This document shows, in pieces, positions 10,799 through 64,000 of a DNA stretch of 64,000 bases. Within the stretch, counting starts at the first letter, position 1, and each line of letters opens with the position of its first letter. Below the pieces are notes generated by a model, which saw only the letters and a program-made list of their open reading frames with translations, did not search any database and was not told the origin of the DNA. The position numbers and the translations under genes were made by a program. Source of the DNA: Cafeteria roenbergensis. Taxonomy: Eukaryota > Sar > Bigyra > Bicosoecida > Cafeteriaceae. The stretch spans positions 589,135 to 653,134 of the forward strand of contig VLTN01000012.1 in NCBI GenBank assembly GCA_008330645.1, written 5' to 3'.

Positions 10799-11109
10799 GC
10801 AGAGGCGCGCCGGGGGGTGGGGGGGGGCAGGGCCGCTGGTGAGCGATGGCCGAAATGCTGCGCGCCCGCGCGCCGGCCCATAGTCAGCGCAGAGTTGGCG
10901 GCGCGGTCGGCAGAGGCGCTCGCTCAGAGTTGCCCGATTGACGCGGGAGTGATCTGGGAGGCCTGTGTCGCACCCCGCTTTGCGCCGAAAACCCCGCCCG
11001 TCGCTGGCCCAATTCCCCCGGGAGCGGGGAGTGCGCCCCGGGTACTGGCCACCTGCGGAGGCCTGCCGCGGTCGCGGGCGCGTCCCGCGCTGGCGGCACG
11101 GCGGAGGCA
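10799..11109. other. divergent intergenic region, 311 bp
   Basis: This separates the start codons of the thioesterase (minus) and the CaaX protein (plus). By arrangement it should contain both promoters. No TATA-like element or repeat is obvious in this GC-rich stretch. Confidence 0.35.
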
Positions 11110-45982: not shown

Positions 45983-46438
45983 CCCAGCGCCCAAGCACGC
46001 GCTCGCGCAGGCTGGAGCGTCTGGGCCCCACGAAGCGGCAGCTTGTTGCGGCTGCTAGAGAAAGCAAACGAGTGGGGCGGGAAGCCGGACGGGTCCGCGG
46101 CCCGCAGGACTCGCTGTGGCGCAGCGGAATCGTCGCCGGTCTGCAGGCCGTCGTCGATCGGAGAGCCGAGTGACTAGCGGCGCTGCTCAGTTCCGCAACT
46201 ATGGCCGAAGGCTCTGCCGGGGGAGGGCGCGCCGACGCCAGCCGTCAAGAGCGGCAGGGCCGGCCGTCGCCGGCGCCGTCGCCGGCTGGCACGGCACGGG
46301 CTCGCTGCCTCCAGCTAGCGGCGGCGACCGCCAGCCCGCCTCTTCGCGCCTCCTCGGCCTGGTCGCGCTGGCGCCTGTGGCATCTGTGCATCAAGGGAGC
46401 AAGGCCTCATTGCAGCGCTCGCCACGGACTTGCGCCCC
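45983..46438. other. divergent intergenic region, 456 bp
   Basis: This lies between the starts of the JmjC and LENG8/Thp3-like genes and presumably holds both promoters. No other element is recognised. Confidence 0.35.
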
Positions 46439-48376
46439 ATGGACCCCGGCGCCGCATCCTGGGTGCAGCGCGTGACCGCCGCTGCCAACGCGACGGGAGA
46501 CCCCGCAATAGCGCACACGACGATGGCGGAGGCGGCGCAGCGCGTCCGCGCGGTGGCAGCCGGCGGCGCTCCGCACAACTGGGGCATCGAGCCCAATCCG
46601 CCGTCGCTGATGCGCCACGTGCGCAACCGGGCGATGCTCGCCGCGGCATCGGCTGGGGGTGGGCCGCACTCGCGCGCTGCGGGGGGGACTGCGCCGCAGT
46701 GGGGAGGGGGGCCGGCGCCTCAGGCAGCCATGCGATTTCCCGGCAGGTCTGGGGTCGTCTCGCTGGTGCCGGGCGCCCCGGCGGTGCCGATGCACCCGTC
46801 GCTGGCGAGCGCGCCGTCGGCAAGCGCCGCATCCATGGGCGTTGCGGGCCTGCAGGACCCGGCTGCGGCTCCTGGTCGGACGGGAAAGCGCGCGCGAGGC
46901 ACCGCGGACGCCGCCGGTGGGGGGCTGCTGTCGCCGGCTGGGTCTGCCGCCGCTGCAGGCCACCCGACCCATGGCCTCGCCAGCACGACCGGGACAGGGC
47001 GCGCCATCCGCTCCAAATCGGCACTCCGGGACCGCGCCGCCAGGTTCGGCCTGTCGTCGCCCGACGCGGCCTCTCGCCCCGCGAAGAGGTCGGCCATGGC
47101 CAAGGCCGCCAAGGGCGGAGCGAGCGGCACTGAGCAGGAAGAGGATGATGGTGATGATGACGCCGACGCTGCGCCGCGATCGCGCAGAGGCAAGCGCAAG
47201 GCGAGGGCGGCCAAGGCTCGCGCCGCGGCCCAGCCGCGGACCGCGTCGGACGACCGCGCAGCTCTTCTCCGAGCAGCGTCGGGCAAGGCGGCCCTGGTGT
47301 CCAAGGCGACGTCGCTCGACGCGCCCGCCCTGCGCGGCATGAGCACGGAGCTCACGAGGCAGTACCTGCGGCTGACGGCGGACCCTGACCCCTCGCAGGT
47401 GCGGCCACCGGAGGTCCTGCCAGCGGCGCTTGCGGCCATTTGCAGGGCGTGGCGCGAGGGAACCGCGACGTACGTCTGGGTGTGCGACCGCCTCAAGGCT
47501 GTGCGGCAGGACATCGTCGTTCAGCGGCTTGTGTCGCCGCTTGCCGTCAGGGCCTACGAGGCGCACGCGCGCATCGCCGCGGAGGTGGGCGATGCCGGCG
47601 AGTTCAACCAGTGCCAGACGCAGCTAATCGGGCTCCACGCAAGCCCTCTCCTGGCGACGCAGGGCCAGTGGCTCGCCCAGTCCAGAGCGGAGTTCATCGC
47701 CTACCGGCTCATATACTACTGCCGCTCCGCCGAGGACGCGGACGCAGAGGCTCTCATCGGGGAGCTTTCGGACAGCGACATGGCCGAGCCGTGCATTGCC
47801 CACGCCCTGAGAGTGCGCCGAGCGGTGGCGATGAGCGACTGGGCCAGCTTCCTCGGCCCGCTCGCCGAGGCGGCGCCGAACAGATCCATCGACCTCATGA
47901 GGATGCTCGCCCACCGCATGCGGGTGGCCGGACTTGCTGCTCTCTGCCAGGCGCTGCGCCCGCGGATTCCGCTTGGCCGAGCAGCCTCGCTGCTGGGCTT
48001 CGGGCCCGCTTGGGCGCCCGTGGCGCGCGGCGCAGGCCTGGTCGAGGCAGAGCTGGAGGCCGGCAACTTTGCCGGCTGCAAGGAGCCTGACACGCGTGCG
48101 GCAGAAGCAGCGCACCGTCTGTCGTCGCCGCTTGCAGTGAGAGCTTTCCGCCGATTTGCGGAGCACTGCGGGGCGTCACTCGTGCACGGCGACACCGCCG
48201 AGCCTGCGCCCCGGCTTGGCGGTGACGCGGCCGCCTCGGACGAGTGGGAGCGGACCCCCGAAGCCCGCTCCCGCAGCTTCCCCACTGACCTCGCCCTTGC
48301 AATCGATTGCAAGAGCTCCGCTATTGACAGCGCCGCCAAGCCGCTGGAAACCCTGCAAGCCAACAGGGTGTTCTGA
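46439..48376 (+). CDS. SAC3/GANP-family protein, LENG8/Thp3-like
   Basis: 645 aa from the ATG at 46439 (three codons inside a frame that opens with TTG). Residues 1 to about 280 are disordered with basic clusters (RSRRGKRKARAAKARAAAQ). From about 283 to 560 the SAC3/GANP/THP3 domain is clear: LTRQYLRLTADPDPSQVRPP, YVWVCDRLKAVRQDIVVQRL, YEAHARIAAEVGDAGEFNQCQTQL. The EFNQCQTQL motif and SxLR-TxxPDPxxVRPxxVL entry mark the LENG8/Thp3 branch, which acts in transcription elongation, splicing and mRNA export, as opposed to TREX-2 Sac3. A Csn12/PCID2-like partner would be expected elsewhere. The final ~80 residues are unconserved. Confidence 0.88.
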   Translation: MDPGAASWVQRVTAAANATGDPAIAHTTMAEAAQRVRAVAAGGAPHNWGIEPNPPSLMRHVRNRAMLAAASAGGGPHSRAAGGTAPQWGGGPAPQAAMRFPGRSGVVSLVPGAPAVPMHPSLASAPSASAASMGVAGLQDPAAAPGRTGKRARGTADAAGGGLLSPAGSAAAAGHPTHGLASTTGTGRAIRSKSALRDRAARFGLSSPDAASRPAKRSAMAKAAKGGASGTEQEEDDGDDDADAAPRSRRGKRKARAAKARAAAQPRTASDDRAALLRAASGKAALVSKATSLDAPALRGMSTELTRQYLRLTADPDPSQVRPPEVLPAALAAICRAWREGTATYVWVCDRLKAVRQDIVVQRLVSPLAVRAYEAHARIAAEVGDAGEFNQCQTQLIGLHASPLLATQGQWLAQSRAEFIAYRLIYYCRSAEDADAEALIGELSDSDMAEPCIAHALRVRRAVAMSDWASFLGPLAEAAPNRSIDLMRMLAHRMRVAGLAALCQALRPRIPLGRAASLLGFGPAWAPVARGAGLVEAELEAGNFAGCKEPDTRAAEAAHRLSSPLAVRAFRRFAEHCGASLVHGDTAEPAPRLGGDAAASDEWERTPEARSRSFPTDLALAIDCKSSAIDSAAKPLETLQANRVF

Positions 48377-49965
48377 CTGCTCGAATCCGGGACGCGCACT
48401 TGTGACCCCGGGTACTTTTTGCCGCTCGCGCTGCCCTGCACCACAGGGACCAAGTCCGGCTGGTCTGTGTGTGTGTGTGTGTACGCAAGTCGAGGTGCCG
48501 CCATACACCGCGCAAGCACGAACAACCGCTTGTCGCCGCGCCGACGCAACTTCCGGCGCTTCCGGCAAAACCGGGCCAGCTCTGCCTCTGGCCAGCCAGC
48601 CAGCTTGTGCCGCCACGGTGAGCGGCCCACTCGGTAGGTGCGCACGCGGGAAAGATGGGGGAAGGGGAGAGCGCGCGGCTCGCGAGGCGCGCGGGCAATG
48701 TGGCTCGCGACACGAGCGAGAACGTCCCCGCCATGCTCTTGCAGCCTGGGGCGGGGGCCTCATCCAGCACAGTCTCGCAGGAGGTGCCCACCTCGGTGCC
48801 GACAAGGTCGGCCGGCGTATAGAGATCCCCTCCCAACTTTTGCGGGCGGAGGACGGCGTCGTGACTTTTGCCGGAACCGGAACAAAGGCTGCGATGGGAC
48901 AGCAAGCCAACCAAACACTCACAAAAAACGCTTGCAGAGTCGCTGCTGCAGCCATGACCGCCCAACACGCAACTGCGCGCGGGTCGGTCGCTGCAGCGCC
49001 CGCCTGCGCAGGCGGGCGGCCACGCGGCGCCTCATTGCCAGGGAAGGCCCGAGGGCTCGGCCGACGCTGCAGGCCGCAGGCTGGCGCGGCAGAGTCGAGC
49101 GCAGCCGACTCCAACAAAAAGCCTCGTCGCTCCCTGAGTCACGCCGCGCTCCCCCCTCCTCTATCCCCCCCCCCCCCCGCCCCTCCCCATCACGCATGCG
49201 GCGAAGTGTGCCGCCTTGAGCGGACGGGGTAGAGGCAGTGCCACGCTGCCCTCTGAGTCGGGCTCATGGCGGGGCCCGGCATTCTTGGCGAGCTGCGGCG
49301 GCGCAGGGCGACTGCCAGCGAGTCGCGCGGCTCGCACCACTGTGTTGGGCCCCAGCGTGGCAAACACTCTTCCAACCAACGGGTCTGCTGCTGCCGCCGT
49401 CCCCCCCGCCCCAAAGCCATCCCACATTGCAGATGCCCACGACTCGACGTCCGGGAACGGGAACGCTTGGCACAATCGCCAGAGGGGCGCAACGTGAGCA
49501 ACCGGTCGCTGGTCTCCAGGCCGACCGCCGCAGCCTCCCGAGCGTGTCGCCGGTGACCTTCCAGCCTCCAGGACTTGCAAAAGTCGCCTCCTCTCATTCG
49601 CACCGTCGGCCACGCAGCATCCCGAGGCGGCCTAAGCCGTGTCCCCCACGCGCGTCATTGCGACCAAGGCGGCAACGCCAAAATGTTCGGACGACGTCCA
49701 CTCTCGCCTGGATGGTTCGCTGCCTCGGCGTCGCGAGAAAGCGAGCCACTCGCAAGTCATCGGCCGAAAACCAGAAGCCCGCCCGCCCCCGAGCAGGCAG
49801 CGCCTGCTTGTCGCCGCGCCACCGTTGGCCCGGCCCGCTGGCCCCGGGGGCCCAGCAGTGCGAGCCTGGACCAGACGTGACCGCATCCTTCGATCGTTGC
49901 TCGCTGGGGCAACGAACACCGGCATTGTGGCCAGAGCGCATCAGCTGGCATCCCGAGGCAAAGAA
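48377..49965. other. intergenic, 1.6 kb, with TG and poly-C runs
   Basis: This lies between the LENG8/Thp3-like stop and the first ATG of the giant receptor. It holds a (TG)8 run (48466-48482) and a 14-C run (49165-49178). A minus-strand open stretch (49161-49613, opened only by GTG) looks weakly protein-like (FPFPDVESWASAMWDGFGAG) but has no start, motif or splice context. An upstream exon of the receptor could lie here. I annotate no gene. Confidence 0.35.
48466..48482. repeat. (TG)8 dinucleotide microsatellite
   Basis: An uninterrupted TG run about 90 bp after the LENG8/Thp3-like stop codon, non-coding. Confidence 0.9.
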
Positions 49966-52900
49966 ATGGCTGCTTCTCCCAGGCCCTTGCCCTGCTGCCC
50001 CTCGGGCAGCAGGGCCAGCGCCAAAGGCTGGCAGCAGGCGCGCTGGGCCAAGAGCCAGCTTGCTCAGCAGCTGCGTTCGTGCCGCTCGCCCCATCGCGCG
50101 CGACCACCGAGGCCACGGCGCGCCCCTCGGGCTGTGGCTGCCGCCCAGGGCGGCCGCACACTATGGCTGGTGGCTTGGGCGCTTGCAGCGGCTCTCGGCA
50201 CCTCGCCGGCACATGGCGCCGCGACGGGCCTTCGCTCGGTGAACCTGCCGATCATGGAGGCGGGAACTGCCGTTCGGATCCCGCCAGCAACGTCGGCGTC
50301 GGGCTACGCCGGCTTCGGATCGTGCTTTGCCCTCATGGGAGATCTTGACGGCAACGGGTTCGGGGACCTCATGGTTGGGCACCGTGGAGCCGGCAGCTTC
50401 GTGGGCAGCGGCGCCGTCGACATTTTGTACCTGGCAAAGGGAGGGGCCGTGAAGTCCCGCGTCACGCACTCCAAAACCGCGGGCGCGTTCCAGTACCGAA
50501 CCAGAGACCTTGACTTGCTCGGTGACGCGTGCGTATGCAGCCTTGACACCGACCTCGACGGCGACTCGTCGACGATCGAGTGCTTCGTATCGGCGACCGG
50601 AGACTGGACGGGAGGGGTGGCCTACGAACGCTACGCCCAAGGCGCGGTGTGGTCTGTGCGGTTCACAAAATCCTCCGGCGCGTCTGCGATTTCGCCGGTC
50701 GCGTTCAACAACGCCTACCTGCCGATCCGCAACCTCGGCTTCGTCAACAACTTCGAGTTTGGGTCGGCACTGGCGATCCTGGGAGGCTCAGCCTCAGCCC
50801 TTCGGCTTGCGGTTGGCATGCAGGGGCACTCAATTGACAGCAACGGGGACCGCGACGGCAAGGTCCACATCTTGACGATATCCTCGTCCGGCCGCGCGGT
50901 GAGCGGAGTCGGACCGGCGCTGTCACGCGAAAGCTCCAACATGCCGTCCGCCATCAAGACGGCATTGTCCAGCTCGCGAGATTTGTACATTGGCGCCGCC
51001 CTGGTCAGCGCAGGGGACATCGACGGCGACGGGTCTCCGGACCTCTTCGTTGGCGCCTTTGGCGTGACGGGAATTCGCACCAAGCAGGGCGCCATCCTCT
51101 TATTCCTGCTCACACCTTCGGGCGACTTGAAGAGCGCAGACCTCTTGCGCTTCCACGAGGACGTCCCAACGATCAGCTCGGTCTACACAGGCGCCGCAGA
51201 TGTCGGCAAGTCCCTTGCGGGCACCGGGGATCTGCTCGGCACGGGCGGCCAAGTCTTCCTGACCGGCCTGCCAATCGCTTACAGTTCGACGACGACGGAG
51301 TCTGGCGGTGTACTCACGTTTGCGGTCGATGGCGCGCAGAGGTTTCCCAACTTCACGGCAGTTCAGCTCAGCACTGGCGATGACAGCGCGTCGTTCAGCG
51401 CGGCGGCGCGAGAGCATGACCAGCTGGGCATGGTCGTCGGCGTTGCTCGGGGCACCCTCGACGGTGGAATCGCGCCCATTCCTGCTGGCGGCGTGTCGAT
51501 CCCGTACTCCAACGGCACGGACTGGGACTCCATCGTCGTCTTGTTGGGCGGCGAGGTCCAGCGGAACGCCGTCGTCCTGGCAGAGCTACGGGTGCAGCGG
51601 CCCTCCCTTGCTCTGCCTCACGCTGCGGGCAGCGGTGTCCCGCTCCACGGGGCTGACGACGGCCCGGCAACTCTCCAGACGGCACTTTGCTGCTTCGCCC
51701 CCCTCCCTGCAGAGTCGCAGCTGCAACTGCCAACGGCGCTTCGCATCACAGCCCGCATCGACGGCCGTGGCGTGCCCATTGACACCTCTGTTCCCCCGAA
51801 CGTTTCGCTCGTCGTCCCTGAGCCAGTCGTTGCGGCCTCCATCCCGCCAGAGTTCGGCCAAGCGACGGCCTATCCAGGCCTCAGCAAGTCCCAGCCGGCG
51901 CTTGTGTCGCCGTCGCAAGGCCTCGTGTCCACCCCAGGAGCTGAAGTTCTGTGTGCTGACGCCGCCTGGGACAAAGTCAGCCCTTCAGGTGTCGAGGCAA
52001 ACCTGACTTGCTCGCCTCCAGGCGGCATCGGACACGGCTTCGCCGTGCGCGTGCGATGGTCAGTTCGTTCCGCCCCGGCCGGACTGCTGACGCGGCACCG
52101 CATCACCACGTCGCATCGATACGTTGCGATGAGTCCGCCGCAGCTGACCGGCTTGGAGCTCCCCCCCGAGCAAAGCCGCTCGAGAAATTTGGACGCCGCC
52201 CCATGGAGCTTCAACGTGACAGGCACTGGGTTCGGGCAAGAGCAGGCAGGGCAGAGAGTCGTCGTGGACGGGGTCCAGTGTCGGCTGACGACCTTTCTGG
52301 GGCCCGGACGGCTGCGATGCTCCCTGCCTCCCAGCCGCTTGGACGCGCGTTCACGCGGATTCGTGACGGTGCGGGTCGAGGCTGGGGGACAGGTGAGCAT
52401 AGGGGGGCTGCCCCTGAGGCTGGCGCCTCCTGGGATCGGCTGCGCGATCATCCCAGCGCCGGCCGCCCAGGGCGAAGCCGCCTCGCTTGACCCAGCGCGC
52501 CCCACCAACATCACCATCGTCGGCCGCAACTTTGGCAACGACACCAGCCTTCGCGTCAGTGGCCTCCTAGTGGGGGGCGCCCCTTCTTCGCCCCTTGTCT
52601 TCATTCCCGAGGTTGGCGCCATCAAAACGGCGTGGGTGGAGTGCCGCGAACCTCGCAGACAGTCCGACACGGTCGTGACCTGCATGCTGCCGCCCGTTCC
52701 GGGCGCGTTTGTCCGCGTCGTGGCGCACGCGATTGTGGAAGATGGCAGTGGAGACGGCGGGGCGAGCAACGAGGTGCCCACGATTCCTGACGAGGGAGAC
52801 GACAGCAGCGGCTTCGCCCCCGTCGGACCCCTGTGCTCAGCCCCCCCAAGCGGCTTCGTGGCGGTTCATGCCAGCTCGGGCGCTTCAGGGGTGGTTTTGC

Positions 52901-55900
52901 CGTTCCGCAACTCGACTATCCTGTCTGTGCGACGGGTGGCATCTGCAGTTGATGGCATTCGCGAGCAGGTTGTGGTTCGCTCGGGGGCGGAAGAGGGGCC
53001 CGTTGTGGAGGTGCTCGCCGGTGCGGCAGCAGTGGCCGAGGCGGCAGCAGAAGAGGCCAGCCCTCTCTCGCCGACGGCGGGAGTCCTGTTTGACGTCCTT
53101 CCATCGGCAGGCGGTGGGACGCTGCTTCTCGCCGGGCAAGGCTTCGGGAACATGTCACTGCTGACCTCCACGAGGGTGATGGCAGCGGGCGGCGACGGCT
53201 CGCTCTTGGCCTCGTCCTGGCGCCTCTTCCTTGTCCCGTCCCCTCGCTTCGTCCTTACCCCCCCCCCTGCAGCCGCAACACCAGAGGCGTCAGACCTGGG
53301 TGCCGCGTGGGCGCTGGGCGGTCCTCGGGCTCCTGCCGGCACGAGCCTCGCCCTCCACCCTGCATGCCCCAACGCGAACCCGCTGCCCCCATCCGAACCC
53401 GCGAGCCCGGTCCTCCCTCGCATCGAAGCAGCAGCCGGCAGCACTCTTGTGCTCGACGACACCCACATCTTGGTGCTCAACTCGCCTGCCGGAGTCGGCT
53501 GGGGATACGTGGCCACCGTGGAAATCGCCACGGGAATCGCGGCAGCCGCCTCAGCAGTGTCGGGGGCAGTACCCCCAGTGAGCGCGGACAAAATCCTTCC
53601 CGTCGGCGTGCCCAGGGGGTCCCTGGCGGAGCCAGAGCACGTTGCCGCCGCAAGATGCGGACTGGCCGCCTCGGCGGGGCAGGAGCCGGTGCCGCCCGTG
53701 CCCTGTGCAGGGTTCCGCCGCCCTGTCGTCAACCTGGCGTCGCCGTCCCGGGGCCTCTCGCAGACAGCGCGCACCACCGTGCTGATCACAGGGGAGGGTT
53801 TCGGCCCCCCCGCCGCTGCTTCCGCCTCGGACCTCCGAGTATGGATTGGCTGCGCCCCTTGCTCCGACGCCAGCGTAATTGATGACACCCGCGTGACTTG
53901 CGTTGCCGAGCTCTCTGCTGGCGTGGACCTGCCCGTCACGGCAGAGCTCGGCGGCCGCATCGACTCCGGGTCAGCGCTGGTGTCTGCCCACCCCGCCAAC
54001 GCCTCCGACAGTCGCGGGGTCGCCTCGTATGCCGAGCCTGCCGTGGCCTCGGTAGTGCCGCCCTACGTCTTGGGCAGCGAGAGCATCACAGCTGGTCCGC
54101 TCGAGGTGTCGGGAGTGAACCTTGGAAGCAGGGCCGACCTTGTCCGCGAGGTCACGGTTGACAACGTCGCCTGCGCCGGGGTGGTGTGGCAGGGGCCAAC
54201 AAGATTGGTGTGCGGATCCATTAACACCTCGCTGCTCGTTGACGGAGTGGTGGTTGTCTCGGTTGCCAACGCACGCAGCTCTGCCCTCGCTCGGGTGCTT
54301 GACGTCGACGCCTACCCGCGGGTGAATGTCGTCGTGTCAGGGCAAGAAGCTCCGGCCTCGCCCGGCCTCGCCGGCACGAGGGTCGTGTTTGACGTGAACG
54401 GGATGGGGCGCGATGCTGAAGTTGACCTCGCGTCCGTCCGCGTCGGCGCCTATCCGTGCGCACGGCCAGAGCTTTCTTCGTCAGGCTCCAGGCTCTCCTG
54501 CACGCTGTCAGGGGGCATCGGCGCCGGGCTCCGCGTCCATGTTCGCACCGCTGCAGGACGCGAAACCGCGCCCAACGGGCTGTTTTCGTTCGAGCCGCCC
54601 GTGGTGACGACAGCTGCACCGCTGCGCCTGCTTCGCGGAGCGTGGGCAGGAACGGGTCCAGCGCCTGCTGACGTCCAGGATTTCAACGTCACCATCCGCG
54701 GACGGGCTCTGGCAGGGCACCGCGTGGCAGGGGCTGGCGTGCCAGCAGCGCCCACTGTGGCGATTGGGGGAATCCCGTGCGCGGTGACGTCGGCAGAGAG
54801 CTTCCCCGGCGCTGAGGACCTCATTGAATGCTCGCTTCCCCCAGGTGCGTGGACGGGAGACTACATCACCGTGACCGCGGCAGGGCGCTCGGCGTCGCTC
54901 AGGGCAGAATTTGCACCTGCGCCTCGCGTGGTGGCCTTGTCAATGCCTTCCAGCCGTCCCACAGCCCAAGGCTGGGAGCTTGGAATCACAGTGGAGGGCG
55001 TGGGTTGGCACAACACCTCTGGACTCGCGTCCGGCGGCGGTTCTGGAGTCGCCTGGGACCCTGCTCCTCCCGACGTCTTCGTCGGAGGAGTGCCATGCGC
55101 CTCTCTCTCCGTGCCGCAAGGGTCGAGCTCTACTGGCGAGGCCGTTCGCGAGTTGCTCTGCCAAGTTGCACCCGGGGCAGGTTCTGGCTTGGCCGTGGAG
55201 CTGGAAACGTCAACAGGCCTGCGCGCCGCTGCTGCGTCGACCGTCTCCTTCGACGAGGTCGTCATCGTGGACGTGCAGCCTCGCGCTGTCCCTCCCGGCC
55301 AGACGAACGCGCAAACGTTCACGCTCACTCTGAGCCCGTTTCCCGCAATGCCCGTCGGAACGGCAGACGCCAGCAGCACGGCTGGCAGTTCCATCCGTCG
55401 CAACGTGTCGCTCGTTTCAGTTGGGGGCGTGGACTGCCCAGTCCAGTCCGTGGAGCTGACAGGCGCAGCTGAGGGAGGGGGCAGTGCGGTCCTCGTCCGC
55501 TGCCGGGCCGTGGTGTCCGAAGCATCACGTTCGGTGGTTGAGGTCGCGCTGACGGGTCCCGTCTCCCGTGCCGGAGATCTCCGCACTGTCGTGATCAGCG
55601 ACCCCAGCGGCTTCCGGCCCTCGTCCCGTCCACGCATTGTATCGGCCGAGCCATCCGACGGGCTCGCTGTCACCGGGGGTGACGTGGTGAACGTCACGCT
55701 TGCATCTGTGGGCGCCGCAGCCGACGTCGTCAGCGCTTTGATGATCGGCGGCAGAGCGGCGCACATTGTGTCGTCCGAGACCGGGGAGGATGCGTCGACC
55801 GGGGAGGCACTCCTCCGACTGCGCGTGCGGACTCCGGTGGGATCGGGGCGTGAAGTGGTGGTGTCTGCACACCTCGTCACAGGACTGGTGCTGGGGGATG

Positions 55901-58900
55901 AGTCCTCCGGTTTGGGCGTGGTGGTGGCGTACGACGCACCGCAATTGTCGTCTGTCACCTGGGCCGAGCCCGGCAGAGCGCTGCTGGCAGGAAGCAACTT
56001 GACCTCCGTTGTCGTGCGCGGCCGCTCCCTCCCGCCGCCAGCGGTCGTTGCAGCGCTGTCCGAGGTGGCCGGCAGTGAGGGTCTGTCGCTCCAGGTGACG
56101 GACGGATTGGGATGGTCGGCCGAGTGCGAGCGCGGACTTCTCGAGGGCGAGAGCGACGAAGAGCTCCGGTGTGCGCTGCTGTCCCTCGTCTGGCCCTTGG
56201 CCGACCTTGGCGAAGCCTCAACTTCGGGCGTCAGGTTCGTCCTGTCCATTGGCGGCTTCACGGCGGCCTCGCCATCACTGCTAGCCATCCGCAGGCCATC
56301 AGTGGTGTTCCTCCTCCCAGCATCGGGGCCCCAGTCCGGAGGCTTCGAGGCAACAGTCAAGGGTTCCGGGTTGGGGTCGCACCCAAGCCAGGTGCAGGCC
56401 GTAACGCTGGCCGGCCGCCCTGCGAAGGTCATTTCCGCGGCAGACGACACGTCATCCCTCACTGTCTCCGTCCCGGCGGGATTCGGCTCGCTCGTGCCGC
56501 TTGAAGTCGTGCTGGCCAACGGCCAGCGTGGCCAGGCAAGCGTGTTTTCGTACGAGTCGCCTCGCCTGTCGCGTGTCTCGCCGTCCTACATCATCCACGG
56601 CTTCCGCGGAACCCTGACAGTCACAATGACCGGCCAGTCGCTCGGCCCCGATGCCGGAGCCGCAGCAGCCATCGTTGCCCACGTCGGCGGCCGTGCCTGC
56701 GACTCGGTTCGGTGGGTCTCGGCGAACGAGGCAGAGTGCGCCATTGACGTCGTCTCCGACGCCCAGTTCCCGCAGCGCGACGCGTCCCTGTCCCTCGCCT
56801 CCGCGGCCTTCCGCCTCGAGGACGCCTTCGACGCAATGGCAGCCCCTTGCGTGGAGATGGTCACACCACAAACGGCCCGGTCTGGCCAAATCCTCCTGGT
56901 GGTGGGCACTGGCTTCGGCCGCGTGGCCGCTGATGTGGCCGACGTCCGCGTGGGCTCCGTCGCATGCTCCGCGTGGTCCATGCAGAGCCCAACCGCGCTG
57001 TCGTGCGTCGTGCCACCAGAGGCCTCTCACCCAGACGGTGGCACGTTTGGGCTGCCTGTGACCGTGACGCTGGCATCCGGATCCAGGAGTGGCGCGCAGT
57101 CTGCGGAACCTGGCGGCTCGTGCGTGGACGTGCTCCCCGGGCCGGGGGGAGGCGTGTCTTCGCCGCCGGGCGTCGCTCCCGAGGCGCTGTTTACGTACGC
57201 CGGTCGCGGGCGGTCTCCTGCCGTGGCGTGCTGGGGCGTCGCTGGCAACCGGCAGCCTGGTTTTGCGTCGTCCGTTCTCGCGTCATGGCGCTGCGTGCCG
57301 TCGGGACTTCAGGCCGCGTTGCCAGAGGAGGAGCTGACGTCAATGGACTTGCAGCTCGAGGACGTGGGCGGCGGCAACGGAACCACGCAGACCATGCCGC
57401 CAGCGGCCATCAAGGCATCGCGAACGGCAGCCGACGCCACCCTCGCTGACGTCGAGGCGGCTGTAGCTCGCGGATTGCCAGAGCCCGCCCGTCTCACGTC
57501 TGTCAGCACCTTTGAATTTGCTGTCTCGGGTGCCCCGGACACCCCGGTGCGCATTCGTGTTCGGCAGCGGAACGCATTCGGCGACGGGCCCTGGTCTGCC
57601 TGGACAGAGCCTGTCCCTGCCGTGTGCGGCGAGGGGCGATACCTGAGAGACGTTGGCCCTGTGTCCACTTGGCTCTGCCACACATGTCCCGTGGGGGCAG
57701 GGTGCGGACCGGGGACGCGGGCCGGGGCGGTAGCCACCGCTCCTGGCCACTGGAGGGTGCCATTCTCGACGCATGGGCTGGGGTTCGGAGACTGCCTGCC
57801 CGCGACGGCGTGCGTTGGAGGCACCGCAGACTCAGGCAACGCGAGTGCTTCCAGACAAGGCGTGCTGGCGGCCGAAATCGGAGGCGCCAGCCGAGGGCGT
57901 GGAAGGTCCCTTCAAGCCGAGGCGCACTGCGCGGCGGGGCACGGCGGGCCACTGTGCGCCCTGTGCGAGAAGGGCTTCGCACTCAGTGGCCAGAAGCGCT
58001 GTCAGCCATGCGGGGAGGGCCCAGACTCGGCGCTTGGCGCTTCAGCGGTTGGGCTAGGGGTGCTGGTGATGGCAAGCCTCGGAGTGTTCTTGGTGGTCAG
58101 GCGCCGAAGGAACCAACGACGGTCAGGCGCGGCCGAAGTTCAGGCCTCTTCCACCACTTCAGAAATGGGCGCGGCGTCGCGGTCTGGCTTCGCCAGTGCC
58201 GGCGCAGGGCTCCGGCCGGCGGCGGCGGCAGCGGTGCACGCTCAGAGAACGTCGGGGCCGAGGCTGAGCCTCACAGCCAAGTTGCCGAGCCCGTGCGAAG
58301 GCTCTGCAGGCACGGAGGCGCACGGTCGCTCGAACCCGCTGCGCGTGGAGGTGCCCTTGGACAGCGGAACGGTGGCCGCCTCGCTGGAGTCGCCCGCGTC
58401 GCCAGGCTGCGCGGCAGCCAAAGACTGGGCCAGTTGGCACGTCGATCGGTCTTCGAGGAGCCTGGACAGCCCAAGCTGGGAGACCGAGTCGACATGGGAG
58501 AGCGTGACGGCGACACAAAGTCCCGGAAGCAGTCGAAGACACAACAGCAAGAGCACCAGCTGGTCAGGTGCCAGCGACGCCGGAGCCGGTGGGTCGAAGC
58601 CGCATCGCTCACGCAGCGCAGGCGCGCGTGCGGCGTCCCAGCGTCGCTCGGTCGTGCCCATGGTCCTCAAATGCTTGGTCAGCTATGCGCAGACTGTGGT
58701 CATCGTCTCAAAGCTGGATGTGGAATGGCCTGCGTCCTTGCTCTCGCTGTTTGACGTCTTTGACGCTTCCTCGTCGGTTTCAGCCGATACCCTGAGCGTG
58801 GACTGCTTGCTGCAAAGCCCTCTGGAGGCGCAGAGTATCGGTGACAGGCCGTTTGTGATCAAGGCTGCTCTTTCGCTGCTTGTTCCGGCCGCCGTGATCG

Positions 58901-60366
58901 GAACCCTGCTTCTCGTGGCAGCCATCGCCTTCCGCGTCTCCCAAGCGGCCAAGCGGCGTGCACGTGCCGCGCAAGGATTTCGGCAGAGCACAGCTCCAAC
59001 GCTTGCCGTCGCCCAGCTGGAGCGAGCCGCCCCCTGCAACAGGTTGGATGCGGCCTCCGATGCCCCCAGCACAGGACGAGCGGAGCCCGCCGCGGGCTGG
59101 GTGCGGAGTGTGCAGACCTGGTCGCTCATCGCCGCCATGCTGCTGACCTTCGTTGTGCAGTCCTCAAGCACCAGAACCGCCCTGCGGTTGCTGACGTGTG
59201 TGGGCATCGGCGACATTGACTGGGAAGTCCAGAACGTGGCAACTGAGTGTGAATACGGCGGTCCGCCGACGCTCCCAGGAGTGCGGTGCGGCGACGGCCG
59301 CGGCGCCATTCTGCAGGCGGCGCAAGCAAACGGTGCTATCCGCCGCCACCTTGCAGCTGATCTTGGAATCGACTGCACCGACCGCGAGGCGCAACCATAC
59401 ATCTATGGCCTGGGACTGACGTCCTTTCTCGCGTACGGTCTGGGCGTGCCGCTTGCGGGCGTCTTGCTGCTCATTGCCTACCGAAAGCGGCTTGACGACG
59501 CTTCGATCCAGGCTCGCCTTGGCTTCCTGTATCTCAGCTTCCGCCCGCACGGGTACCTGTGGGAGAATCTGGTGATTCTGAGGAAGACTCTGCTTGCTGT
59601 CAGCACTGTGTTCCTAGCGCCGCTCGGACCAAGCATTCAAGCCACCGCTTCGTCGCTCGTGCTGGGTGGGTTCATTGCCGCGCAGGCGGCGGCAAGGCCC
59701 TACAAAGCCAAGCTCCTGAATCAAGCAGAGCTTGCCTCGTTGTTGGCCTGCCACGCCACGATGCTGGGAGGCCTCATGCTGGCGGCGGTCTCCCCGGCCG
59801 AGTCGCCGGGGTTCTTCGGCGGCGTTGCTGCCGCTGTGGTTGCTGTGAACGTGGCGTGTCTTGCCATGTTTGCCCGTGCGTTCTTGTGGGCTCTGCACAA
59901 GGACGGCATCGTGTCGTGTGAGGCAGCCCGGGCCACGTCGCTTGGGAGCTGCTGCCGAGCGCGCGGGCCGGCCAGACCCATCAAGGCCACCTCCACCGCA
60001 GGCCTAGGCCAGGGCTGGCGCCAGACGAGTCCCATCGGTAGCGCGGTTCGTCAGCAAGCAACCCCACCGAGCGTGCCGGAGCAACCTGACACCAAAGGCC
60101 TGGGCACCCGAAACCCGACTCTGCAAGCCGGCAGCGCCAAGGCTGAACTTGGCCAGGGAGGGAGCAAGTCTGTGAGGGGCGGACCGCATTCCCCCGTCTC
60201 CAGGCAGGAGCGAGCAACATCATTGCAGAGACAACGCGGCCTCAGGTCGCAGTCTGGGCCAGAAGCTGGCCTCAATAGCACACTTGCAGCGTCCAGAGTG
60301 CGGCGCGATGAAGACGCTGTCGAACGCGCGGCGATGGCCCCGTCGCGACGTCGCAAGGGTGACTGA
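49966..60366 (+). CDS. giant multi-TM surface receptor: FG-GAP repeats, many IPT/TIG domains, Cys-rich module, 7-9 TM segments
   Basis: 3466 aa, single exon, from the first in-frame ATG; the start is uncertain. An Arg-rich lead precedes a hydrophobic signal-like helix (TLWLVAWALAAALG, about 65). FG-GAP/integrin-alpha-like repeats follow at about 115, 263, 340 and 411; two carry Ca2+ loops (GDLDGNGFGDL, GDIDGDGSPDL). From about 600 to 2450 at least ten IPT/TIG-like beta-sandwich units are recognisable by SP-x-GxxxG-x-x-V-x-G-GFG and V-GG-x-x-C patterns. A Cys-rich ephrin-receptor-like module (CHTCPVGAGCGPG, GHGGPLCALCEKGFALSG, about 2560-2680) precedes TM1 (about 2694) and a bundle of further TMs. 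The bundle holds LGFLYLSFRPHGYLWENLVILRK, a segment typical of protist giant membrane proteins. The cytosolic tail (~170 aa) is basic and Ser-rich. It is likely an adhesion or sensing receptor; the ligand is unknown. Confidence 0.8.
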   Translation: MAASPRPLPCCPSGSRASAKGWQQARWAKSQLAQQLRSCRSPHRARPPRPRRAPRAVAAAQGGRTLWLVAWALAAALGTSPAHGAATGLRSVNLPIMEAGTAVRIPPATSASGYAGFGSCFALMGDLDGNGFGDLMVGHRGAGSFVGSGAVDILYLAKGGAVKSRVTHSKTAGAFQYRTRDLDLLGDACVCSLDTDLDGDSSTIECFVSATGDWTGGVAYERYAQGAVWSVRFTKSSGASAISPVAFNNAYLPIRNLGFVNNFEFGSALAILGGSASALRLAVGMQGHSIDSNGDRDGKVHILTISSSGRAVSGVGPALSRESSNMPSAIKTALSSSRDLYIGAALVSAGDIDGDGSPDLFVGAFGVTGIRTKQGAILLFLLTPSGDLKSADLLRFHEDVPTISSVYTGAADVGKSLAGTGDLLGTGGQVFLTGLPIAYSSTTTESGGVLTFAVDGAQRFPNFTAVQLSTGDDSASFSAAAREHDQLGMVVGVARGTLDGGIAPIPAGGVSIPYSNGTDWDSIVVLLGGEVQRNAVVLAELRVQRPSLALPHAAGSGVPLHGADDGPATLQTALCCFAPLPAESQLQLPTALRITARIDGRGVPIDTSVPPNVSLVVPEPVVAASIPPEFGQATAYPGLSKSQPALVSPSQGLVSTPGAEVLCADAAWDKVSPSGVEANLTCSPPGGIGHGFAVRVRWSVRSAPAGLLTRHRITTSHRYVAMSPPQLTGLELPPEQSRSRNLDAAPWSFNVTGTGFGQEQAGQRVVVDGVQCRLTTFLGPGRLRCSLPPSRLDARSRGFVTVRVEAGGQVSIGGLPLRLAPPGIGCAIIPAPAAQGEAASLDPARPTNITIVGRNFGNDTSLRVSGLLVGGAPSSPLVFIPEVGAIKTAWVECREPRRQSDTVVTCMLPPVPGAFVRVVAHAIVEDGSGDGGASNEVPTIPDEGDDSSGFAPVGPLCSAPPSGFVAVHASSGASGVVLPFRNSTILSVRRVASAVDGIREQVVVRSGAEEGPVVEVLAGAAAVAEAAAEEASPLSPTAGVLFDVLPSAGGGTLLLAGQGFGNMSLLTSTRVMAAGGDGSLLASSWRLFLVPSPRFVLTPPPAAATPEASDLGAAWALGGPRAPAGTSLALHPACPNANPLPPSEPASPVLPRIEAAAGSTLVLDDTHILVLNSPAGVGWGYVATVEIATGIAAAASAVSGAVPPVSADKILPVGVPRGSLAEPEHVAAARCGLAASAGQEPVPPVPCAGFRRPVVNLASPSRGLSQTARTTVLITGEGFGPPAAASASDLRVWIGCAPCSDASVIDDTRVTCVAELSAGVDLPVTAELGGRIDSGSALVSAHPANASDSRGVASYAEPAVASVVPPYVLGSESITAGPLEVSGVNLGSRADLVREVTVDNVACAGVVWQGPTRLVCGSINTSLLVDGVVVVSVANARSSALARVLDVDAYPRVNVVVSGQEAPASPGLAGTRVVFDVNGMGRDAEVDLASVRVGAYPCARPELSSSGSRLSCTLSGGIGAGLRVHVRTAAGRETAPNGLFSFEPPVVTTAAPLRLLRGAWAGTGPAPADVQDFNVTIRGRALAGHRVAGAGVPAAPTVAIGGIPCAVTSAESFPGAEDLIECSLPPGAWTGDYITVTAAGRSASLRAEFAPAPRVVALSMPSSRPTAQGWELGITVEGVGWHNTSGLASGGGSGVAWDPAPPDVFVGGVPCASLSVPQGSSSTGEAVRELLCQVAPGAGSGLAVELETSTGLRAAAASTVSFDEVVIVDVQPRAVPPGQTNAQTFTLTLSPFPAMPVGTADASSTAGSSIRRNVSLVSVGGVDCPVQSVELTGAAEGGGSAVLVRCRAVVSEASRSVVEVALTGPVSRAGDLRTVVISDPSGFRPSSRPRIVSAEPSDGLAVTGGDVVNVTLASVGAAADVVSALMIGGRAAHIVSSETGEDASTGEALLRLRVRTPVGSGREVVVSAHLVTGLVLGDESSGLGVVVAYDAPQLSSVTWAEPGRALLAGSNLTSVVVRGRSLPPPAVVAALSEVAGSEGLSLQVTDGLGWSAECERGLLEGESDEELRCALLSLVWPLADLGEASTSGVRFVLSIGGFTAASPSLLAIRRPSVVFLLPASGPQSGGFEATVKGSGLGSHPSQVQAVTLAGRPAKVISAADDTSSLTVSVPAGFGSLVPLEVVLANGQRGQASVFSYESPRLSRVSPSYIIHGFRGTLTVTMTGQSLGPDAGAAAAIVAHVGGRACDSVRWVSANEAECAIDVVSDAQFPQRDASLSLASAAFRLEDAFDAMAAPCVEMVTPQTARSGQILLVVGTGFGRVAADVADVRVGSVACSAWSMQSPTALSCVVPPEASHPDGGTFGLPVTVTLASGSRSGAQSAEPGGSCVDVLPGPGGGVSSPPGVAPEALFTYAGRGRSPAVACWGVAGNRQPGFASSVLASWRCVPSGLQAALPEEELTSMDLQLEDVGGGNGTTQTMPPAAIKASRTAADATLADVEAAVARGLPEPARLTSVSTFEFAVSGAPDTPVRIRVRQRNAFGDGPWSAWTEPVPAVCGEGRYLRDVGPVSTWLCHTCPVGAGCGPGTRAGAVATAPGHWRVPFSTHGLGFGDCLPATACVGGTADSGNASASRQGVLAAEIGGASRGRGRSLQAEAHCAAGHGGPLCALCEKGFALSGQKRCQPCGEGPDSALGASAVGLGVLVMASLGVFLVVRRRRNQRRSGAAEVQASSTTSEMGAASRSGFASAGAGLRPAAAAAVHAQRTSGPRLSLTAKLPSPCEGSAGTEAHGRSNPLRVEVPLDSGTVAASLESPASPGCAAAKDWASWHVDRSSRSLDSPSWETESTWESVTATQSPGSSRRHNSKSTSWSGASDAGAGGSKPHRSRSAGARAASQRRSVVPMVLKCLVSYAQTVVIVSKLDVEWPASLLSLFDVFDASSSVSADTLSVDCLLQSPLEAQSIGDRPFVIKAALSLLVPAAVIGTLLLVAAIAFRVSQAAKRRARAAQGFRQSTAPTLAVAQLERAAPCNRLDAASDAPSTGRAEPAAGWVRSVQTWSLIAAMLLTFVVQSSSTRTALRLLTCVGIGDIDWEVQNVATECEYGGPPTLPGVRCGDGRGAILQAAQANGAIRRHLAADLGIDCTDREAQPYIYGLGLTSFLAYGLGVPLAGVLLLIAYRKRLDDASIQARLGFLYLSFRPHGYLWENLVILRKTLLAVSTVFLAPLGPSIQATASSLVLGGFIAAQAAARPYKAKLLNQAELASLLACHATMLGGLMLAAVSPAESPGFFGGVAAAVVAVNVACLAMFARAFLWALHKDGIVSCEAARATSLGSCCRARGPARPIKATSTAGLGQGWRQTSPIGSAVRQQATPPSVPEQPDTKGLGTRNPTLQAGSAKAELGQGGSKSVRGGPHSPVSRQERATSLQRQRGLRSQSGPEAGLNSTLAASRVRRDEDAVERAAMAPSRRRKGD
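49989..50015 (+). other. perfect 12-bp GC-rich hairpin just after the assigned start codon
   Basis: GCCCTGCTGCCC (49989-50000) is the exact reverse complement of GGGCAGCAGGGC (50004-50015), with a CTC loop. It begins 23 nt after the A of ATG 49966. It could hinder translation from that ATG, or mark 5' UTR if the true start is elsewhere. Confidence 0.6.
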
Positions 60367-61274
60367 GAAGGCACTGCATGGGACTGAAGTGGAGAGAGTG
60401 AAGAGAAGCAATGAGTGCGATGATTGGCGTGTTTGAATCACTGCGGGGTCGTGCTTCACGCCGCAACGCAAGCAACTGCCGCGCGCTGCCTCCCACTTGC
60501 ATCGTCGAAAGCAAGGGCTGCTGCTCAACTCGGTGCTCAGCATCATTGGGGGGAGGGGGCGAGAGAGGCGTGTCGCCACACCACACACTCCACCCACCGC
60601 CTCACTAATCACCAATCCAGCGAGTCCATTCCCGATGAGTCACAGATCGCGCGAACCCGCGTACCCTCTCCAGGGTCCCAAGTCCGGCCCGATAACGTCT
60701 CCGGTGAGCCCTGGTGTATGTGACCGTCAGGAGTTGTGGCCATGCATCTGGCAGCGGCCAAAATGGGCACCTGTTAGGTGTTCGGCGCCAGCGGGCTGGG
60801 AGTGGCGGTGCCTTGCTCGGAGACTGCACCCACGATGGCACTGAAGCCTCGCAAGCCACCTCCCAGCCTGCCGTGGGATGGGCGGGAGGGTCATGAATGC
60901 GGCCTGGCTCTCACACAACCTCAAAGCCGATCGCAACGGGCCGTGGAGTGCTGTGCGAACGCTCGCACGGCACGGAAGGCAAAGCGGAGCGCACGCTGCG
61001 CGCGCCTTGCCGGAGAGCTGCTTGTCCTGGCCGCCAACGCAGGCGGGAAGACGAGAGCTCGGGACAGCTCCTGGGTCACGCCGAGGGCACCCCCAGCACG
61101 CTGCAGGGAAGCCGCGTGGCCCAGGAGAGTGTCGAGACTCTGCCAAGTGGCGCGTCTGTTTTGTCGGGGTGCAATCTACGTCTGCGGACAAACATGCACC
61201 CGCCGGTTGAGTCAAACAAACGAATTGCAGCCCGGCAAACCCGCACTCGCCCGCCAAACCCCGCAGCCGCGGAC
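60367..61274. other. intergenic, 908 bp
   Basis: This lies between the receptor stop and the ankyrin-gene start; both genes are plus-strand. It presumably contains the receptor 3' UTR and the ankyrin promoter. Open frames here have no recognisable motif on either strand. Confidence 0.4.
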
Positions 61275-63599
61275 ATGGCCGCTCCTGCAATGGACACAAA
61301 TGACCTGGGAAAGGCCCTTTGGGAGGCGGCGAAGGAGGGGAACACCGCCGAAGCCAGGAGGCTGCTCGACGAGCGGGCGCCCGTGGACTGGCAGAACGAC
61401 GATGCCGTGAGCTCTTGTTGTCACGGCGCGGTGCCCCGCGTCGCCGTGCCCACTGCGCAGGAAAAAGATTCCCCTTGTTCAGCTTGGAGGGCAGCCGGAG
61501 GTGTGTGTCCGGGACTGCGCCAGGCGACATGGGCAAGCCCGAGACAGCTAGCGCAGTCAGGCTTGGAGACAGCCTGGGCGCGTGGGCTGGCGTGGTCTGC
61601 GGCGCTGCGCGTCAGCTAGGGGGGATGTTATGCGTTCCTGCGTTGTGTGCGGTGAGGGGGGAGCGCCGCGGCGTCGCAGGATGGCACTACGGCTCTCATG
61701 GCCGCGGCACGGCATGGCCACAACGACACGGTGGAGCTGCTACTGGACCGCGGCGCCGATCTGGGGGCTACGGGCAGTGTAAGTCAGCCGTTGGGGGCTG
61801 CTGCGCGACGGGTGGCGCCGGGCGCGACGGGCAGGCGCCGTGGCACAGGGGAGAGCAGCCGGTGCAGCTGGGCGCATGCGTCACCAGAGCAGCGAGGTTG
61901 GCAAGCTTGCATATATCCCGGGGGGGCTGCTATGCGTTCCTGCGGTGTGTGATGTGGTGTGGGGGGTATGAGGCGTCGCAGTATGGCACTACGGCTCTGA
62001 CGGCTGCGGCAGCCGGGGGCTCCAAGGCCACGGTGGAGCTGCTTCTGGACCGCGGTGCCGACCTGGCAGCCAAGGACCGTGTGAGTCAGCCGCTTGGAGC
62101 TGCTGCGTGACTGGCGGCGCCGGGCGTGGCGGCCGAGTGCCGTGCCGCGGTGGGAAGCAGACGGGGCCACTGCCCTCATGGGCGAGGAGGCCCAAGGGTG
62201 GGTGGCGCTGCATGTATGTCGGGGGGGCTGCTATGCGTTCCTGCATCGTGTGGCGGTGGCGGTGAGTGGGTGATGTGGCGTCGCAGATGGGCTATACGGT
62301 GCTGATGGCTGCGGCAGCAAGAGGCCACAAGGACACGGTGGAGCTGCTTCTGGACCGCGGTGCCGACCTGGCGGCCAAGGATTCTGTAAGCCAGCCGCTT
62401 GGAGCTGCTGCGTGACTGGTGGCGCCGGGCGTGGCGGGCGAGTGCCGTGCCGCGGTGGGAAGCTGACGGGGCCACTGCCCTCATGGGAGAGGAGGCCCAA
62501 GGGTGGGTGGCGCTGCATGTATGTCGGGGGGGCTGCTATGCGTTCCTGCATCGTGTGGCGGTGGTGGTGAGTGGGTGATGTGGCGTCGCAGATGGGCTAT
62601 ACGGTGCTGATGGCTGCGGCAGCAAGAGGCCACACGGACACGGTGGAGCTGCTTCTGGACCGCGGTGCCGACCTGGCAGCCAGTGACCGTGTGAGTCAGC
62701 CGCTTGGAGCTGCTGCGTGACTGGCGGCGCCGGGCGTGGCGGGCGAGTGCCGTGCCGCGGTGGGAAGCAGACGGGGCCATTGCCCTCATGGGCGAGGAGG
62801 CCCAAGGGTGGGTGGCGCTGCATGTATGTCGGGGGGGCTGCTATGCGTTCCTGCATTGTGTGGCGGTGGTGGTGAGTGGGTGATGTGGCGTCGCAGGATG
62901 GCAAAACTGCGCTGATGCGGGCAGCGTCCAGTGGCAACAAGGACATGGTCAAGCTGCTGCTGGACCGCGGCGCCGACCTGGCGGCCAAGGATTCTGTAAG
63001 CCAGCCGCTTGGAGCTGCTGCGTGACTGGTGGCGCCGGGCGTGGCGGGCGAGTGCCGTGCCGCGGTGGGAAGCAGACAGGGCCACTGCCCGCATGGGTGA
63101 GGAGGCCCAAGGTCGGTGGCGCTGCATGTATGTCGGGGGGGCTGCTATGCGTTCCTGCATCGTGTGGCGGTGGTGGTGAGTGGGGTACGTGACATCGCAG
63201 GGCTGCCGCACGGTGCTGATGGCGGCCGTGGACGGAGGCCGCGTGGACACGGTGGAGCTGCTGCTGGACTGCGGCGCCGACCTGAATTCCAGGGACATGG
63301 TAAGCCAACCGAAATGGCCGGGCTGGCAGCGCATGCTTTGCATGGATTACTGCCCGTTTTTCTGGCACGGTCGGAGGGACATTAAGCGCCCCAGGATGTT
63401 TGGTTCGCTGTGCACGTCGCGCGCAACGGCTGGGCGGCTCATTGTTGTTGCTCTTTGGGGCCATGATTCGAACGTGCTGCAGTCTGGCAATGACGCGTTC
63501 AACTTCTGCATCAACGATTCTTGCGCAAGGGTGCTTCGAAGTGCGGAGCGGATCCAGCGATGGCACCGCCGCCGCCTACTTGTGATGTGGGAACGCTGA
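61275..63599 (+). CDS. ankyrin-repeat protein with one repeat per exon, 8 exons
   Basis: Exons: 61275-61406, 61680-61778, 61982-62080, 62287-62385, 62592-62690, 62897-62995, 63201-63299 and 63483-63599. All introns are GT-AG and phase 0; total 280 aa. Exon 1 encodes a start and an ankyrin-like helix pair (LGKALWEAAKEGNTAEARRL). Exons 2-7 are each exactly 99 nt and each encodes one 33-residue ankyrin repeat of type GTTALMAAA-x-GH-x-DTVELLLDRGADL. Exon 8 encodes a basic C-terminus (ERIQRWHRRRLLVMWER) and stop. Ankyrin stacks bind proteins; the partner is unknown. Introns 2-6 are 203-206 bp and nearly identical. The symmetric phase means any middle exon can be skipped or added without a frameshift, so isoforms with different repeat numbers are possible. 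Unspliced, every intron breaks the frame. Confidence 0.85.
61680..63299 (+). repeat. tandem array of ~305-bp exon-plus-intron units, 6 exons
   Basis: Exon starts are spaced 302, 305, 305, 305 and 304 bp. Each unit is a 99-bp ankyrin exon plus a 203-206-bp intron. By-eye comparison of introns 62081-62286 and 62386-62591 finds about 8 differences in 206 bp. Exons 62592-62690 and 62897-62995 differ at 28 of 99 positions. Confidence 0.9.
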
Positions 63600-64000
63600 T
63601 GCTCTCAGCTGCCTGCTTCAGAGCCGCCAGCGGAACAAAGCCCTGATTCTGAGCATCGATCAGGGGGCTGAGCATCACCTTCTGGTCGGAGCACCGGTTG
63701 GAGTCCACGTGGGGCTCTTCGGCCGTACCCCTGCTGACATGCATGGACGTTGAGAGGCCGCGAGCGGGTGAAGGACCGACGTTGACCTACATGGCTAAAG
63801 TTCGGCGCGGCGAGGACCACACGGAGTCGCCCGAGGGACGGGAGGGAGGGGTCACACGATCGAATCGAGCACACACGCACCACTCGGGGCGCGTGCGTGC
63901 GGCGGGCACGGGTACGGGGGAACGGCTGGTGAGCCCCACGTGGGCTCGAACCGGCGTGCCCGCCCAGAGGGCGAGCCTGCGAGCGAGTCGGACGGCCCGC
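63600..64000. other. 3' flank of the ankyrin gene to window edge
   Basis: No coding sequence is supported. On the minus strand near 63950 there is a B-box-like GGTTCGAGCC, but a tRNA fold could not be confirmed and would be cut by the window edge. Confidence 0.3.

Follow-up and report, generated by a model that had tools for sequence, protein, structure and literature searches.

Why are the introns of a repeat gene more alike than the exons that they separate? The question is raised by the window (the whole stretch of 64,000 nucleotides of Cafeteria roenbergensis DNA that was analysed), in which an ankyrin gene of eight predicted exons, complete as assembled, lies on the forward strand at 61275-63599. 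The gene model was built by extending an array of six exons in both directions to a start exon and a terminal exon, and splicing in silico returned a predicted product of 280 amino acids made of an N-cap, six repeats and a C-cap. Exon 1 (61275-61406, 44 codons) contains the start codon and the N-cap ankyrin half-repeat (MAAPAMDTNDLGKALWEAAKEGN...) and is followed by intron 1 (61407-61679, 273 bp, GTGAGC..GCAG). The preliminary description of this DNA had reported six exons of 99 bp, each encoding one ankyrin repeat, and these were all recovered: E1 (61680-61778, 33 codons), E2 (61982-62080), E3 (62287-62385), E4 (62592-62690), E5 (62897-62995) and E6 (63201-63299), each of 99 bp, in phase 0 and free of stops, with AG before and GTAAG or GTGAG after. 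The intervening introns, I1 (61779-61981), I2 (62081-62286), I3 (62386-62591), I4 (62691-62896) and I5 (62996-63200), measure 203, 206, 206, 206 and 205 bp respectively, I1 being 26-29% diverged from I2-I5. The last intron (63300-63482, 183 bp) leads to the terminal exon (63483-63599), which carries the C-cap (SGNDAFNFCINDSCARVLRSAERIQRWHRRRLLVMWER) and the stop codon TGA, all on the forward strand.

Since the intron ends are GT..AG, the lengths of the five inter-repeat introns are not multiples of three and six of the seven introns contain in-frame stops, the 99-bp exons are predicted to be joined by splicing. Tandem Repeats Finder identified a single array in the window, with a period of 305, 5.3 copies and a score of 2125. 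Pfam analysis of the spliced protein returned PF12796 (201.4 bits) and PF00023 (173.5 bits), both over the curated cut-offs. No non-ankyrin family exceeded its cut-off, one of the matches being the LRRK2 ankyrin model, and neither a GTPase (ROC-COR) nor an NB-ARC or NACHT domain was detected by Pfam in the window protein.

The comparison of the repeat units confirmed the inverted pattern of divergence. I2 and I3, judged by eye to be about 96% identical, differ at 7/206 positions (96.6% identity), and I4 and I5, judged at about 93%, at 15/205 (92.7%). E5 and E4 differ at 28/99 sites, 21 of them within the first 66 nucleotides, as had been described, and for this pair the exons are significantly more diverged than the introns (Fisher p = 2.5e-6). 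Among units 2-5 the exon excess was significant in 5 of the 6 pairs, the exception being E3-E4 (p = 0.16). The differences in these units amounted to 92/396 in the first two thirds of the exon, 25/198 in the last third and 59/1233 in the introns, so that the last third also lies above the introns, by less than the first two thirds; over the array the second exon half is slightly above the introns (0.153 vs 0.138). Considering all pairs in the window array, synonymous divergence was 0.292, nonsynonymous 0.198 and intron divergence 0.138, the reverse of the relation between introns and synonymous sites that the preliminary description had named as evidence against its own reading.

A search of the genome for further arrays, which had been recommended, returned a family of about 100 related genes. 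A search for genes of light harvesting returned none. In the assembly (36.3 Mb, 167 contigs; GC content 67.6% in the loci examined and 72.8% in the window), a homology search found 104 places with an N-cap query and 96, including the window gene, with a C-cap query, both counts taking in probable haplotype duplicates and a second subfamily. The arrays examined contain 4 to 24 recognised repeat exons each, some of them being cut by the ends of a stretch or a contig. A strict scan of 21 arrays, which required a length of 99 bp, accepted 254 exons. Of the eight others found in gaps of 300-900 bp between these, four were broken by single-base indels, one contained a stop, one had a GC donor, one was truncated and one was intact with a score under the threshold, so the coding frame is well kept. 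An N-cap exon homologue was found by pattern search upstream of 20/21 arrays and a C-cap exon by the motif RW.RR in 10/20. The ratio pN/pS was 0.40 for the N-cap between 19 arrays and 0.68 for the C-cap over 10 arrays, themselves found by the C-cap's own motif.

Locus L014, which is likely to be the second haplotype of L013, was excluded from the bootstrap, the leave-one-out procedure, the rates at DARPin positions, the exon-sharing count, the between-array introns and the caps; it was retained in the whole-exon comparison, the codon profile, the exon-intron correlation, the linkage analysis and the search for a donor of E5. L020, in whose stretch two ankyrin genes are mixed, was for that reason dropped after the whole-exon comparison. 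L033 (C63:181600-188000) belongs to a second subfamily with the same caps, 33-residue exons and introns of about 241-255 bp, lies away from the contig-end group and did not enter the rate estimates; one of its genes has three successive repeat exons that are nearly identical.

The comparison was then extended to the family. Whole exons are more diverged than introns in 14/19 arrays, the five exceptions being L011, L013, L015, L020 and L021. The codon profile of 21 arrays, which are homologous to one another and are not independent samples, gave mean divergences of 0.223 for codons 1-16, 0.102 for codons 17-33 and 0.143 for introns; codons 1-16 lie above the introns in 19/21 arrays (reversed in L011 and L021) and codons 17-33 below them in 16/21, with fourfold sites above the introns in 14/21 only. 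Exon and intron distances show a weak positive correlation (means 0.21-0.40). Nonsynonymous divergence was highest at codons 1, 3, 7, 8, 11, 12, 32 and 33. Bootstrapping by resampling 20 arrays, with these eight codons chosen from the same data, returned a ratio of hypervariable pN to intron divergence of 2.73 [2.26-3.31] and to first-half fourfold sites of 1.80 [1.51-2.20]. Relative to introns, the framework stood at 0.49, first-half fourfold sites at 1.52 [1.17-1.91] and second-half fourfold sites at 0.74 [0.54-1.01]. As the codons had been selected on the arrays on which they were evaluated, the test was repeated leaving one array out. Codons 1, 3, 7, 8, 11, 12 and 33, without 32, were chosen in 20/20 rounds, and in 20/20 they exceeded the introns of the left-out array.

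The location of these codons in the repeat was compared with that of the randomised positions of designed ankyrin binders. A docking study of a DARPin with HER2 describes six randomised positions per repeat, with contacts at the randomised residues 46, 48, 56, 57, 78, 79, 81 and 89 (PMC3602593). At a period of 33 residues these fall on offsets 0, 1, 3, 11 and 12, and phmmer aligned the family repeat with a DARPin free of gaps, placing the five positions at codon 33 and codons 1, 3, 11 and 12. All five are within the seven most variable codons (chance 8.8e-5, for a comparison picked after the codon variability was known). Over 20 arrays their pN was 0.417, whereas introns gave 0.142 and fourfold sites 0.156; this pN exceeded introns in 20/20 arrays and first-half fourfold sites in 18/20. 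The sixth position, which we take to be DARPin 26 and thus codon 24 here, shows no such variability (pN 0.043, exceeding introns in 2/20 arrays), and neither does codon 31, corresponding to DARPin position 33 (0.123, 7/20). With six positions the mean pN was 0.364, above introns in 19/20 arrays (chance 5.0e-4), and with seven it was 0.322, above introns in 20/20. As five positions are variable and the sixth is constant, the match is confined to the beta-turn and helix 1 and does not extend to helix 2.

In the protein, codons 33 and 1 come together at the beta-turn, although an intron of 200 bp lies between them in the DNA, an arrangement that speaks for selection on the protein and not for a single DNA tract. 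Variation at these surface positions is common to ankyrins in general, and the case for selection lies only in the excess over neutral yardsticks. Measured against both fourfold sites and introns, the pN values would indicate diversifying selection at positions of the concave face. The modular binding repertoire anticipated in the preliminary description agrees with this pattern, the hypervariable codons coinciding with the presumed ankyrin binding face. By analogy, the family looks like a natural counterpart of the designed binders: both consist of an N-cap, a number of 33-residue repeats and a C-cap, with five variable positions at offsets 0, 1, 3, 11 and 12. DARPins, however, are laboratory libraries, their sixth randomised position is constant in the Cafeteria family, and the latter shows extra variation at codons 7 and 8.

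The origin of the exon differences was examined in pairs of units with introns at most 1% apart (36 pairs from 10 arrays). In these pairs divergence was 0.246 at hypervariable codons, 0.102 at first-half fourfold sites, 0.034 in the framework and 0.006 in the introns, and 67% of the changed hypervariable codons differed at two or three bases. A value of 0.246 beside 0.006 indicates that the differences arrived as blocks and not by point mutation at the pace of the intron. Linkage between sites declines with distance inside the unit in 13/13 arrays with at least 8 units (permutation p <= 0.002), L013 and L014, likely haplotypes of one locus, both being among them.

A clear mosaic is present in the window itself. 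The first 66 nucleotides of E4 resemble E3 (1/66 differences), while its 3' end and the following intron resemble E2 and I2, I4 being 1.9% from I2. Among the sites of the window that divide the units 2:2, exon sites 2, 3, 7, 14 and 33 group E3 with E4, whereas exon sites 87 and 96-98, together with three intron sites among the first 35 nucleotides, group E2 with E4, placing one breakpoint inside E4 between exon nucleotides 33 and 87. The reading offered in the preliminary description, a fast diversification of exons on an intron scaffold homogenised by gene conversion, fits both this internal breakpoint and the decay of linkage in all the arrays tested. E5 differs from E2-E4 at 20-21/66 positions in its first two thirds and resembles E3 in the last third (1/33). 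The search for a donor of its divergent part found none, the best whole-exon matches reaching 84-85% and the best match differing at 13/66.

The exchange seems to take place mostly within arrays. The nearest neighbour of the first 36 exon nucleotides lies in the same array in a fraction of 0.71 of cases, and that of size-matched intron segments in 0.69-0.72; for whole introns, which are longer, the fraction is 0.91 and for whole exons 0.74. Only 2/199 types of the first 36 nucleotides are exactly common to different arrays. A common donor pool for the exon 5' ends was also considered and was unsupported by these two values, 2/199 and 0.71. The loci L013 (contig C10) and L014 (contig C129) are near-identical, colinear at 98-99% on both sides and different in the content and spacing of their 3' repeats, and they are probably two haplotypes. 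Their comparison revealed 23 mismatches in 6.2 kb, distributed as 10 in repeat exons, 10 in introns and 3 upstream. Seven exon mismatches fall in one exon (six at codons 1-6 and one at codon 29), and the other three in two exons, at codons 11, 14 and 12. Presuming the allelic state and the accuracy of the bases, these haplotype differences are suggestive only as a sign of diversification.

Taken as a whole, we assign a probability of about 0.65 to short-tract recombination between repeat units combined with diversifying selection on the binding face, producing a recognition repertoire. Each gene would encode a solenoid with no other known domain, in which a conserved N-cap and a conserved C-cap enclose one-exon repeats of variable number. 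As the repeat exons are of 99 bp, in phase 0 and flanked by similar introns, misaligned exchange keeps the frame, and misaligned recombination or conversion between units could add, drop, swap or hybridise repeats. Mosaics and linkage decay are seen directly; the recombination event may be of either type. Homogenisation between units would affect the introns and the helix-2 half of the exon, while at the beta-turn and in helix 1, whose positions make up the ankyrin binding face, differences would be kept or favoured by selection. The excess of nonsynonymous divergence at these positions was observed, and their binding role is suggested by ankyrin structure. The outcome would be a repertoire of intracellular binders with different specificities, most likely directed at foreign or changing proteins. 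Constraint is stronger on the caps than on the variable face, suggesting that a common part is joined to a variable binding face, and the constant C-cap, with its RWHRRR motif, might serve as a common docking part.

Defence is the function that we favour, self-adaptors being the main alternative. The same diversification might be used for self, in ubiquitin-ligase substrate receptors or in mating or self-recognition factors; a docking role of the constant C-cap towards a common partner would suit such adaptors, and the window protein has no defence domain. Excess diversification and array turnover would, however, be more usual in conflict with other organisms, and we regard self use as possible but rather improbable. 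When viral contigs were scanned once with the window protein, no match was confirmed. In C. burkhardae, ankyrin domains as a class, not these genes specifically, are listed as enriched among stationary-phase genes (PMC7852580, Table 2).

Selection for diversity would be superfluous if ordinary concerted evolution acted on surface positions under relaxed constraint. Concerted evolution is indeed plain from the linkage decay, and the hypervariable positions are mostly non-consensus in ankyrins. Under relaxed constraint, however, divergence should stay at or below the neutral rate, and the hypervariable pN is 2.7-fold that of introns and 1.8-fold that of linked fourfold sites, the excess rising to about 40-fold in the pairs with near-identical introns; this explanation is therefore considered unlikely. 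Two further explanations concern the introns themselves.

Introns of different arrays diverge by 0.321, close to the N-cap synonymous value (pS 0.351), the fourfold sites of the two exon halves giving 0.400 and 0.189. Along the intron (20 arrays), divergence is 0.20-0.30 in the first ~60 nucleotides and 0.20 at the acceptor end, and mostly 0.30-0.41 elsewhere, one bin reaching 0.47. An artefact of assembly or polishing, in which mis-mapped reads made introns alike that are in truth more diverged, finds some ground in the preparation of the data. The strain BVI assembly was obtained from PacBio reads and polished with Racon using PacBio and then Illumina reads (PMC6972860). Such short-read polishing could have homogenised similar stretches, many arrays lie at contig ends, and single-base indels break four exons. 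An artefact alone would nevertheless give neither a nonsynonymous excess at structurally meaningful codons nor a high divergence in the first exon half with a low one in the second; moreover, the gap persists where introns differ by 5-15%, and introns between arrays diverge at about the synonymous level. We consider this origin very improbable. Functional introns, conserved for regulatory or recombination signals as the preliminary description had also proposed, are the least probable of these explanations and are not needed, since the better conservation between arrays of the first ~60 nucleotides and the acceptor end stands against an overall divergence near the synonymous level, as expected for mostly neutral sequence. 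Those two segments look like the only constrained parts of the intron, and the first ~60 nucleotides are a possible splicing or recombination element.

The distribution of the family in the genome was also analyzed. The window ends at the end of contig C12, and the array lies at most 2.4 kb from it. The best N-cap genes (E below 1e-12) number 44, and 36 of them are on contigs of at least 100 kb. On these contigs 28/36 lie within 20 kb of a contig end, the other 8 being internal, and all 28 are transcribed outwards, towards the end. Over all contig sizes the values were 36/44 within 20 kb and 34/36 outward, and the 20-kb ends of the 167 contigs make up at most 18% of the genome. A weaker N-cap set (28 places, E about 1e-11 to 3e-7, with one more place under 1e-6 left out) showed no bias towards contig ends, 5/21 being within 20 kb on contigs of at least 100 kb and 3/5 of these outward. 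Near several arrays there is a dispersed repeat of 710 bp, with at least 41 full-length places among the 55 matches listed (40/263 candidates scored); its reference copy is L010:7540-8250 (C17:230539-231249), to which full-length copies are 96-97% identical. Counted on those 41 places among the matches listed, 37/38 on contigs of at least 100 kb are within 20 kb of an end and 36/37 point outwards, and the repeat is a possible subtelomeric element. In the window, 60538-60660 on the forward strand, upstream of the ankyrin gene, is about 78-83% similar to the start of this repeat, which at other arrays lies downstream. The contig-end DNA at 63731-64000 (forward strand) is repeated 3' of other arrays and is 86-87% identical to the flanks on C10, C129 and C14. 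Runs of TTAGGG or TTTAGGG were absent from the assembly. Assembly breaks 3' of the genes could produce the gene bias but would leave inward copies of the repeat on the facing contig, and only one was seen; the contig-end group is therefore likely subtelomeric, and much of the ankyrin family is probably at chromosome ends.

Solenoid receptors with shuffled exons are known from brown algae and fungi, and the Cafeteria family is a new form of these that does without the NTPase module. In brown algae, LRR-ROCO GTPases and NB-ARC-TPR genes with shuffled repeat exons have been proposed as immune repertoires (PMC11378527; Zambounis et al. 2012 as cited therein). According to the same source they are likewise stramenopile, with one solenoid repeat per exon of uniform length and phase and positively selected positions on the concave binding face, and shuffled LRR exons also occur in 15 further Saccharina sequences, which consist mostly of LRRs alone and so parallel the ankyrin-only genes of Cafeteria. 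The brown-algal exons, however, are 72-bp phase-2 LRR (or TPR) units joined to a GTPase or NB-ARC domain (PMC11378527), while the Cafeteria family has 99-bp phase-0 ankyrin exons, conserved caps, a contig-end location and measured intron homogenisation, and the window gene has no NTPase module. Fungal NLRs with highly conserved ANK, TPR or WD repeats are described as sharing signs of concerted evolution, repeat-number polymorphism and positive selection at concave-surface positions of the ankyrins, but their repeats stand behind NACHT or NB-ARC and effector domains (PMC4986451), whereas in Cafeteria each repeat has an exon of its own and ankyrin repeats alone make up the window protein. No description of the Cafeteria family was found in the titles and the starts of abstracts of the open-access papers listed on ankyrins in Cafeteria, on ankyrin exon shuffling, on concerted evolution of repeats, on shuffled-exon receptors and on hypervariable or subtelomeric ankyrin families, and the word ankyrin is absent from the main text of two Cafeteria genome papers.

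A further step, which we hold only tentatively and judge to be on the unlikely side, is that about 100 DARPin-like genes at chromosome ends, with variable arrays between constant caps and continual sub-exon recombination, provide anticipatory intracellular recognition, for example of giant viruses, virophages or bacterial proteins, and that clonal lineages may differ by mitotic recombination. If true, this would be an antibody-like logic in a unicellular predator, operating with neither a dedicated recombinase nor an NTPase receptor. The introns would represent a built-in, near-neutral clock beside each variable module, offering a clean natural test of binding diversity in repeat proteins, and shuffled-exon solenoid repertoires would be extended from brown algae to a free-living bacterivorous flagellate. 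As Cafeteria is the host of CroV and mavirus and four sequenced strains exist, the question of defence is directly testable.

Finally, other features were recorded in the window. Directly upstream of the ankyrin gene, 49636-60366 (forward strand) is an open frame of 3576 amino acids with three IPT/TIG matches, one FG-GAP match and a 3' part that, by eye, is membrane-spanning in appearance. On the reverse strand, 25396-36741 is an open frame of 3781 amino acids with no confident Pfam family and a KNTC1 ARM model below cut-off. Further open frames matched Abhydrolase_2 (9872-11812, reverse strand), a ZIP zinc transporter (37402-39984, reverse strand) and SAC3/GANP (46319-48376, forward strand), and a 27-bp tandem repeat of 11.7 copies with 89% matches lies at 8730-9045, within open frames of both strands.
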